DNA of 44,013 nucleotides, taken from the NCBI RefSeq assembly GCF_000564855.1, contig NZ_AYXG01000069.1, positions 1 through 44,013 of the forward strand, read 5' to 3'. This stretch comes from Actinokineospora spheciospongiae. Lineage in GTDB: Bacteria; Actinomycetota; Actinomycetes; Mycobacteriales; Pseudonocardiaceae. Below, piece after piece: positions 13,197 through 14,243 of the stretch. Both the position numbers and the translations under genes were made by a program. Positions within the stretch are counted from its first letter, which is position 1. Each line of letters opens with the position of its first letter. The notes beneath the pieces are model-generated. The model was not told the DNA's origin. It saw only the letters and a list, made by a program, of their open reading frames with translations, and searched no databases.

Positions 13197-13204
13197 TCGT
13201 CACG

Positions 13205-13270
13205 TTAGGCAAGGCTATTGCACAGTTAGGCAAGCCTATCGAGTGGCAATTCAGGTTAGGCATTCCTATC
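13205..13270 (-). promoter_or_regulatory. array of three IdeR/DtxR-type iron boxes upstream of ferritin
   Basis: Three copies of the form TTAGGCA-x-x-CTAT start at 13205, 13226 and 13256: TTAGGCAAGGCTATT, TTAGGCAAGCCTATC and TTAGGCATTCCTATC. The left half fits the iron-box consensus TTAGGTTAGGCTAACCTAA well and the right half only partly. The start-to-start spacings of 21 and 30 bases are close to two and three helical turns, so dimers would stack on one face. They lie 62-128 bp upstream of the ferritin start codon, a position suited to activation. Confidence 0.75.
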
Positions 13271-13320: not shown

Positions 13321-13450
13321 CCCGATCGAGCGACTACGCGGCGGGTGTCGAATGGGGTAGAGTCATCGTTGCTGAGGCCACTAGGCCGCAGAAGTGGACC
13401 CGGGCAGGACCCGCCGGACGACGGGAGCCCGGGTTTCGCGCTGTCCGGGG
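13321..13450 (+). ncRNA. structured RNA element, copy A (promoter plus two hairpins)
   Basis: This element is repeated at 14063-14192. It opens with CCCGATCG, then GCGACT at 13330 and a -10-like TAGAGT at 13358-13363. Hairpin 1 (13372-13391) has stem CTG-A-GGCC/GGCC-G-CAG and loop ACTA. Hairpin 2 has outer stem ACCCGGGC (13398-13405)/GCCCGGGT (13427-13434) and inner stem CCCG/CGGG around CCGGACGA. It ends with TTCGCGCTGTCCGGGG, directly at the stop of the minus-strand DUF3800-like gene. Stems are kept between copies although bases differ, which supports an RNA. Plus-strand orientation is preferred because of the conserved -10. It may belong to the published DUF3800-associated RNA motifs; I cannot test which. 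Confidence 0.6.
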
Positions 13451-13993
13451 TCAATTCTCGACCTGGATCACCTGGTTGATGACCCCCTGGATTCGTCGCC
13501 GCCAGTCACCGCCCGCGCCGTAGGCCCACGCCGTGGCGTCGGCGATGCCGAGCAGTGGGTCCTCGTGGGATTGGACGTGCTCGTAGAACGGCCCGTCGAA
13601 CGTCCCCACGCCGATCGCGCGCAGCGTCGAGGAGATGGTCAACCGGTCGGCGCGGTCACCCGTCTCCCCTCGCGACTCGATGGCGACGCGGTGCGCGCCC
13701 CGCTTGCAGGCGTCAATGGTCATGGCGCGCACGCACGCCGCCCGCGCTTGTCCCGCCGGGCCCTGGGCCAGGTAGAGGTCCGCCGAGATCCCCCCGGCCA
13801 CCAGTTCGGAGATCAGCGCGCGCCTTCTGGTGTTGCTCTCGGCTTGGAAGTGCACCCGTCGCTCGCCCGGGAGGCAGAGCGCGCGCAGCAGGGTGCGAGC
13901 GGCGGCCAGTCGGTTGACCGGGACGACGGCGACACCCAGCAGGTAGGTGCGTCCCCGGATCGACTCGTCGATGAACAGGTGGGGCGATTTCAC
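13451..13993 (-). CDS. DUF3800-like protein (RNase H-like fold suspected)
   Basis: Using the GTG at 13993 gives 180 residues; a TTG at 14041 would add 16. Near the N-terminus is L-F-I-D-E-S, the D-E-S signature of DUF3800. Mid-protein there is I-E-S-R-G-E, and near the C-terminus D-P-L-L-G-I-A-D-A-T-A-W followed by G-G-D-W-R-R-R. The spaced Asp/Glu/Asp residues would suit a metal-dependent RNase H-like site, but activity is not established for this family. The gene is bracketed by two copies of a structured RNA element on the opposite strand, copy A touching its stop and copy B lying just upstream of its start. No Shine-Dalgarno is visible. Family assignment is by motif memory only. Confidence 0.7.
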   Translation of the reverse strand: MKSPHLFIDESIRGRTYLLGVAVVPVNRLAAARTLLRALCLPGERRVHFQAESNTRRRALISELVAGGISADLYLAQGPAGQARAACVRAMTIDACKRGAHRVAIESRGETGDRADRLTISSTLRAIGVGTFDGPFYEHVQSHEDPLLGIADATAWAYGAGGDWRRRIQGVINQVIQVEN

Positions 13994-14046
13994 CCGCTGG
14001 GCATCGGCTGTATCAGGGGGTGAACCACTGGGGGCGCGCAAATGTT

Positions 14047-14243
14047 CGCTCGAACGGGCGGTCCCGATCGGGCGACTGCCCGGCGAACGCCGAATGGGCT
14101 AGATTCGGCGTCAGCCAAGAACACTCGGTCTTGGAAGTGAACCCGGGCAGGCTCGTCGGACGGCGAGAGCCCGGGTTTCGCGCTGTTCGGGGCAGGTTCA
14201 CCCCACCCCCCGCGCGTGGTCGGCCTTGTCCCGCTCGAACGGG
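14047..14243. repeat. 12-bp direct repeats flanking RNA copy B
   Basis: CGCTCGAACGGG occurs at 14047-14058 and again at 14232-14243, enclosing RNA copy B. The right copy ends exactly at the arcA stop codon. The arrangement resembles a target-site duplication around an inserted unit, though no transposase or terminal inverted repeat is present. Confidence 0.55.
14063..14192 (+). ncRNA. structured RNA element, copy B (promoter plus two hairpins)
   Basis: This is the second copy of the element at 13321-13450, same strand and almost the same length. CCCGATCG and GCGACT are kept, and the -10-like box is TAGATT at 14100-14105. Hairpin 1 at 14115-14134 has a wholly different sequence, CCAAGA/TCTTGG with loop ACACTCGG, but the same overall span of 20 bases. 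Hairpin 2 keeps the outer stem ACCCGGGC (14141-14148)/GCCCGGGT (14169-14176). Its inner stem is CTCG/CGAG where copy A has CCCG/CGGG, a compensated change. TTCGCGCTGTTCGGGG closes the element. It lies divergent to the DUF3800-like gene and convergent with arcA. Confidence 0.6.

Follow-up and report, generated by a model that had tools for sequence, protein, structure and literature searches.

What function joins a small DUF3800-type gene to the structured RNA elements on either side of it? The question is raised by a locus of Actinokineospora spheciospongiae that lies in a stretch of 44,013 nucleotides (contig NZ_AYXG01000069.1), referred to as a whole as the window. A sequence-only reading of this DNA had described the order as RNA copy A (+), gene (−), RNA copy B (+), and this order was borne out, with two RNAs of ∼80 nt flanking a gene for 180 amino acids. 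Copy A occupies 13364..13446 on the plus strand (covariance model R1, 78.8 bits, E = 1.7e-18; covariation) and directly follows a −10-like box, TAGAGT, read in the sequence at 13358..13363 on the same strand. It consists of a 5′ hairpin (13372-13391), the sequence GAAGTG, a long stem with an inner stem-loop, a CGGACG loop (13415-13420), and a TTCGCGCTGTC tail. The gene, which encodes a DUF3800-related protein with a predicted RNase HII fold, spans 13451..13993 on the minus strand, from a GTG start to a stop codon at 13451-13453; translation might also begin at a TTG at 14041. Upstream of the gene start lies the diverged copy B (14107..14188, plus strand; R1, 76.7 bits, E = 6.8e-18), with its 5′ hairpin at 14115-14134, its CGGACG loop at 14157-14162, and a −10-like box, TAGATT, read in the sequence at 14100..14105 (plus strand).

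Several details of the earlier description could be refined. The two copies do align end to end with indels that cancel (78% identity over 130 nt; +1/−1 in the core), and the −10-like boxes, the variable 5′ hairpins, the CCCGGGC/GCCCGGG stem, and the CGGACG loop are indeed shared in the sequence. The similarity spans the ∼130 bp first given as the size of each copy, but the RNA proper measures ∼80 nt, and the first ∼45 nt are promoter or upstream DNA. Copy A adjoins the stop codon, as had been noticed, but does not end exactly at it, since the R1 match ends at 13446, 4 nt short of 13451-13453. The bracketing by two copies is true in the window, but the constant element in the loci examined is one RNA at the tail of the gene, with extra copies, some of them in tandem, in certain relatives besides the tail copy. 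An insertion with the two RNA copies as its ends was considered and not adopted, the constant element being the single copy at the gene tail. R1, trained on 34 sequences with A and B among them, finds A and B in the 7.5-Mb source genome with very small E values and nothing else at E ≤ 0.001, and the resemblance of the two copies is thus not due to chance.

A BLAST search with copy B, made before any model was built, gave matches in 9 of 41 genomes, the source genome included; one of these nine (G009) was discarded because it looks like coding sequence. Three copies from contig G016:C56, whose 5′ part differs, were also left out of the alignment. The resulting alignment, A4, holds 34 RNAs and is the basis of the structure named here, composed of a variable 5′ hairpin, a conserved GAAGTG, a long stem with an unpaired U, an inner stem, and the CGGACG loop. 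In A4, 88.0% of the cells pair and 16 of 22 pairs change on both sides; none of 500 shuffles reaches any of the five observed values, and the structure slid along the alignment leaves only 32 to 49% paired. For 108 model-fitted RNAs, the values are 91.9% of cells paired and 15 of 21 pairs with double-sided changes, in an alignment that is biased towards the structure and for which 1 of 500 shuffles reaches the 15 double-sided pairs (one of the five measures). Covariation in homologues, on which the earlier reading had staked its RNA elements, was thus found in both alignments. RNAalifold recovers the long and inner stems from A4 but not the 5′ hairpin, so this hairpin is based on the manual pair list and the model-fitted alignment.

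Of 143 distinct RNAs, 115 have a TAnnnT box in the interval from −20 to +5 relative to the start of the RNA model; in the controls, the reverse complement of this interval gave 19 and an interval further upstream gave 8. When the RNA in the window and 48 relative loci were scanned with Rfam 15, no family matched the RNA; matches elsewhere in the scanned loci were tRNAs, one FMN riboswitch, and low-scoring families, and at one locus (L203) a subthreshold PtaRNA1 match (29 bits against a cutoff of 47) covers a weak R1 match. The ∼80-nt RNA is a covarying structured family without an Rfam 15 match in the scanned loci. Seen by eye, a palindrome-like TTCACnCGATCGnGTGAA stands tens of nucleotides before the −10 box in several loci of the genus (e.g., L023 to L028), and a similar sequence also occurs at the ferritin locus in relatives that lack the module.

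The window protein itself has no Pfam match at E ≤ 1, and its DUF3800 label comes by way of its relatives: 7 of 18 match DUF3800 (PF12686) at E ≤ 1 (best, 3.2e-4), and 3 of 7 more distant relatives pass the curated cutoff. The predicted protein model has a pLDDT of 97, and in a structure search with this model the first 21 VIA-align rows are all RNase HII, HIII, or H2 entries; two of these rows are a repair complex, in which we take the matched chain to be RNase HII. The suggestion of an RNase H-like protein from spaced acidic residues is supported by this prediction, which points more exactly to an RNase HII-like protein. The positions of D9, E10, E52, E106, D116, D145, and D152 hold an acidic residue in 72 or more of 73 proteins, and the conserved acids D9, E10, E106, and D152 may correspond to the four active-site carboxylates of RNase HII, a match assigned by motif and secondary structure rather than by superposition. 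For five members, PADLOC gave no match, NCBIfam no useful match, and PHROGs weak matches only; a PDB sequence search returned nothing meaningful, and a paired genome scan using the window protein alone returned no relative.

How strictly are the gene and the RNA linked? Among 27 homologue matches with printed tails, a set that includes fragments and several matches from one genome, the RNA was seen by eye to be convergent at or near the gene end in 25, the exceptions being L021, where the RNA lies some 840 bp off, and L039. Across 150 genomes of the order, R1 gave 51 matches in 36 genomes, and 34 genomes hold the 47 matches of the protein profile. Each of the 24 protein matches with E < 1e-40 is followed, 2 to 17 nt beyond its end, by the start of an R1 match on the opposite strand; a pair of them in G052, identical in score and spacing, are probably copies. 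Among the 23 weaker protein matches, an R1 match lies no further than about 160 nt away in 9 and is absent at E ≤ 0.001 from the other 14, which belong mostly to other DUF3800 branches. Nine of these 14 loci were inspected by eye, and 7 show another convergent, promoter-preceded hairpin RNA, with a weak R1 match in two of the nine (L203 and L207). The proposal that a structured RNA gene and a DUF3800-type gene form a unit is supported by this linkage as well as by the covariation. Of 57 gene-RNA pairs, 35 have the end of the RNA model no more than 5 nt from the stop codon (at −2 or −3 nt in 28), and the spacing of adjacent copies to the stop codon ranges from −63 to +33 nt.

For the other branches, a second model, R2, was built from five RNAs of their loci. 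In 197 genomes of the class it gave 21 matches in 12 genomes; 16 of these are convergent at the tail of a gene found by a second protein profile (two or more of them broken), and 5 have no gene match nearby. The second profile returned 30 loci, of which 28 were searched with R1, yielding a tail match in 23; R2 adds tail RNAs at L212 and L223, whereas L218 and L238 match neither model. One further locus, L236, is a gene fragment in the source genome, where R1 alone was tried. The R1 and R2 matches at so many gene tails indicate that related RNAs accompany several DUF3800 branches across the Actinomycetes. One contig of this survey (G413, contig 1, 4160047-4162283) carries three gene-plus-RNA units of the second DUF3800 branch in tandem.

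The unit is also found outside chromosomes. In the fetched plasmid and phage records, the RNA is convergent at the gene tail in 13 of 15; one record (L247) has a gene without an RNA, and on a plasmid of Mycolicibacterium pallens (L246, 2118-2202) the RNA match is found downstream of the gene and on the same strand as it. Searches with tblastn returned 79 plasmid records for one member and 67 for one member of the other branch, the organisms named in these listings being actinobacteria. Mycobacteriophage Gaia (two records of one phage) is the only phage match for P0105, and its RNA is convergent; the phage search with an other-branch member gave none. Among the plasmids is one of 5,666 bp from Kocuria flava (L242), with four annotated genes, a DUF3800-type gene, and a convergent RNA.

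Within the genus, all 16 genomes have a ferritin gene, and in the window the module is held by the interval between the ferritin and arginine deiminase genes. A module element stands beside the ferritin gene in 3 of the 16 genomes, with the gene present in 2 and the RNA plus a gene trace in 1; as with any accessory gene, absence from this locus in the other 13 is to be expected. Upstream of the ferritin gene, at 13204-13269 of the window, are three GTTAGGCAAGCCTAT-like boxes, which presumably resemble the boxes of iron regulators (DtxR/IdeR) and have similar counterparts by eye in many relatives of the genus. Also by eye, several relatives without the module, among L187 to L201, appear to have a short open reading frame (ESDWRW...LLVVFGTLAF) between the ferritin and arginine deiminase genes. 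At another locus (L211, 1-14071), the contig end is a 99.6% inverted self-repeat that contains a mirrored pair of RNA copies, one of them next to a gene with a frameshift, and this is either an assembly artefact or a real palindrome.

Copies of the RNA without a gene were collected with a DNA pattern for the RNA core, which finds only RNAs with an intact core. It yielded 12 viral loci, and 80 bacterial loci were taken from at least 119 stretches; the titles of these 80 are all actinobacterial. Of the bacterial loci, 44 hold an intact gene, 12 show no gene match, 4 are cut by an edge, and the other 20 show a partial match, a class that includes frameshifted remnants as well as some divergent genes that may be whole (L111, L116, and L141). 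The viral loci comprise 3 with an intact gene, 7 with none, and 2 near an edge, of which L058 (391 nt of room and no gene end) was counted as gene-free and L060 (20 nt of room) was left out. On this count gene-free loci are in excess among the viral set (3 with and 8 without, versus 64 and 12 in bacteria; Fisher's P = 2.3e-4). Two bacterial loci, L126 and L130, are identical to the viral L060 and L063; P becomes 1.0e-4 with L126 and L130 removed from the bacteria and 7.3e-4 if L063 is removed from the viral side. Restricting "with" to intact genes removes the significance (P = 0.10). This dependence on counting shows that the viral loci differ by lacking any trace of a gene, while bacterial loci often keep a wreck.

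Three of the RNA-only loci (L056, L063, and L055) have phage terminase, portal, major head, and tail proteins nearby, and the neighbors at L064 and L066 gave no telling protein match; the chromosomal solo RNAs stand beside ordinary genes where Pfam named the neighbors. Among RNA-only copies, 7 of the 9 bacterial and 5 of the 8 viral ones keep the −10 box, compared with 46 of 52 copies beside intact genes. The energy of the 5′ hairpin is −10.2 and −10.7 kcal/mol in RNA-only copies and −10.6 beside intact genes, with weaker z-scores in the former (−1.84 bacterial and −1.69 viral versus −2.38); neither the −10 box nor the 5′ hairpin had been required by the search pattern. In three hand-picked pairs with one gene broken or lost, the RNAs are 93 to 96% identical, and in a fourth, distant pair (L144 versus L088) only 65%; a wider test of RNA against dead-gene identity was uninformative, as the aligner setting gives even unrelated DNA 74% identity. 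Three genomes of the order have R1 matches of 59.8 to 79.9 bits and no protein match in the genome: G051, whose solo RNA (79.9 bits) lacks a TAnnnT box; G148, which is only 89% complete; and G042, whose stretch is identical over 1,880 nt to the viral contig L056.

Most of 100 loci examined have a single RNA copy, and directly adjacent RNA dimers occur at L067, L064, and L058. At the two viral loci among these (L064, 2613-2694; L058, 306-387), the second, diverged copy follows the first and has no CGGACG loop, an arrangement suggestive of a dimeric transcript. Both copies share one 5′ hairpin within L113, L138, and L068; between loci the hairpin varies. Over 72 gene-RNA pairs, protein distance correlates with that of the RNA core (0.55), the 5′ hairpin (0.42), and the upstream DNA (0.32), each value being reached in 0 of 2,000 permutations, and the core and hairpin correlations persist after allowing for the upstream DNA. 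These correlations indicate common descent of the unit; they are compatible with coadaptation and do not prove it.

The reading that fits best is the toxin/antitoxin idea already raised in the sequence-only reading, to which we give a probability of about 0.48: gene and RNA would be a two-gene module of the toxin-antitoxin type, a nuclease plus an inhibitory RNA, with the solo RNAs of phages as decoys. This inference builds on the computed RNA family and structure, promoter signal, convergent linkage, predicted fold, and conserved acidic residues. The protein is predicted to be an RNase HII-fold nuclease of the DUF3800 group, and the RNA would be an ∼80-nt transcript with its own promoter on the opposite strand, running from near the 5′ hairpin to the stop codon or next to it. 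We infer that the RNA is made and binds its cognate protein through the core and the variable hairpin, that the bound RNA would block the nuclease, and that losing the module or the RNA would free it. The strong genes are always accompanied by the RNA, the RNA is kept without a gene, and there are small plasmids and phage-like solo RNAs; this is why the RNA is cast as the antidote and the protein as the potential toxin. Extra, tandem, and solo copies could then act in trans as added antitoxin, and gene-free copies on phage or prophage contigs could, by analogy with pseudo-ToxI of a type III system, be decoys that protect the phage. The RNA-only loci may also be young relics, an 80-nt RNA being a smaller target than a 540-nt gene, and our confidence in the toxin-antitoxin-like and decoy readings is slightly lowered by the dependence of the viral excess on counting broken genes.

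A wider generalization is possible, and we offer it tentatively as something short of probable: actinobacterial DUF3800 proteins would be RNase HII-derived toxins with a superfamily of convergent RNA antitoxins transcribed from their own promoters, a new class of toxin-antitoxin or abortive-infection systems that phages counter with gene-free decoy RNAs, and the DUF3800-associated RNAs described earlier would be antitoxins of the same kind. If the decoy idea is true, it would add another protein fold to the RNA-antidote systems and another case of RNA mimicry by phages. Structured RNAs linked to DUF3800 have been listed without a function, and the present family comes with a fixed anatomy and a predicted nuclease partner. 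The near-strict dependence of gene on RNA and the gene-free phage-like copies make the function of the whole class testable.

Other explanations account for part of the same evidence. An RNase HII-like effector, e.g., one directed against plasmids or phages, could instead need the RNA as its cofactor, as a scaffold, or for recognizing the substrate, in which case the RNA would not be its inhibitor. The strict linkage of strong gene matches to the RNA and the coinheritance of RNA and protein would be expected of such a ribonucleoprotein nuclease too, and passages of PMC10910872 and PMC12669027 place DUF3800 nucleases in some Cas12a2-type loci. We nevertheless consider it rather unlikely: gene-free RNAs persist in good shape, G051, G148, and G042 carry the RNA without a gene match, and no guide-like variable single strand was seen. 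The last point bears directly on the RNA-guided nuclease that the sequence-only reading had entertained, which we reject because no free guide-like segment was seen in the RNA; its variable part is a base-paired hairpin, and it lies opposite the gene strand.

Control by pairing is a further candidate. In convergent type I toxin-antitoxin pairs, an antisense RNA pairs with the 3′ end of the mRNA, and the RNA described here might likewise pair with the 3′ end of the convergent mRNA, or its hairpin might serve as a two-way terminator. The closeness of the RNA model end to the stop codon (5 nt or less in 35 of 57 pairs) and a stem that forms a strong hairpin would suit such control; yet structure, loop, and 5′ hairpin are conserved outside the coding overlap, and the spacing to the stop codon varies (−63 to +33 nt), both of which weaken an antisense role. 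Extra and phage copies moreover lie away from any such mRNA, and the −10 box is conserved upstream, leaving this explanation clearly improbable. Less probable still is a selfish or mobile unit in which RNA and protein serve their own transfer, homing, or copy spread. Such a unit could explain the patchy distribution (36 of the 150 genomes surveyed in the order have R1 matches, and at one locus the element is present in 3 of the genus's 16) and the occurrence on plasmids and in a phage, but copy number is low, with at most four R1 and five R2 matches per genome, and the tandem arrays resemble ordinary duplications.

How does the module, read as a toxin-antitoxin-type pair, relate to what has been described? 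That DUF3800 proteins associate with structured RNAs is already known: passages of PMC10910872 link DUF3800 to putative noncoding RNAs and to an RNase H fold, the former in line with what the earlier reading had stated of published work. The Rfam DUF3800 motifs, which according to passages of PMC11701678 include DUF3800-I (RF02969) and DUF3800-IX (RF02968), are likewise structured RNAs near a DUF3800 gene with no function assigned, but none of the Rfam models matches this RNA, either in the window or in the scanned relatives. A search for DUF3800-I in 198 genomes of the phylum gave no match, with none in the control genomes either. None of the texts covered describes the RNase HII link, the convergent anatomy, the RNA superfamily, or the gene-free phage copies, and the RNA family may be a motif of the founding comparative-genomics work that is absent from Rfam.

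The RNase HII and RNase H2 catalytic subunits share 10 to 16% identity with the protein in the structure-search rows and differ from it in that the protein has a partner RNA and a patchy, accessory distribution. In the transposon-derived RNA-guided nucleases of the TnpB/IscB type, a same-strand RNA overlaps the nuclease gene and carries a guide, unlike the opposite-strand RNA with a base-paired variable hairpin found here. The DUF3800 proteins of Cas12a2-type loci share the RNase H fold (passages of PMC10910872 and PMC12669027), but those are accessory domains in CRISPR loci, whereas here a stand-alone protein comes with its own RNA. The type III systems ToxIN, CptIN, and TenpIN likewise occur on plasmids, and the module would share with them a protein nuclease paired with a structured RNA; tandem RNA copies occur in some loci of the present family. 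A precedent for a phage RNA mimic exists there as well, in the phage-encoded pseudo-ToxI that mimics the ToxI RNA (passages of PMC3475682). In type III systems, however, RNA, terminator, and toxin form one operon (passages of PMC5086642), whereas here the RNA is convergent with the gene and has its own −10 box, and the protein is predicted to be RNase HII-like. Given that its RNA lies on the opposite strand with its own −10 box rather than upstream in an operon, the module is not a member of type III, but it would work like one.
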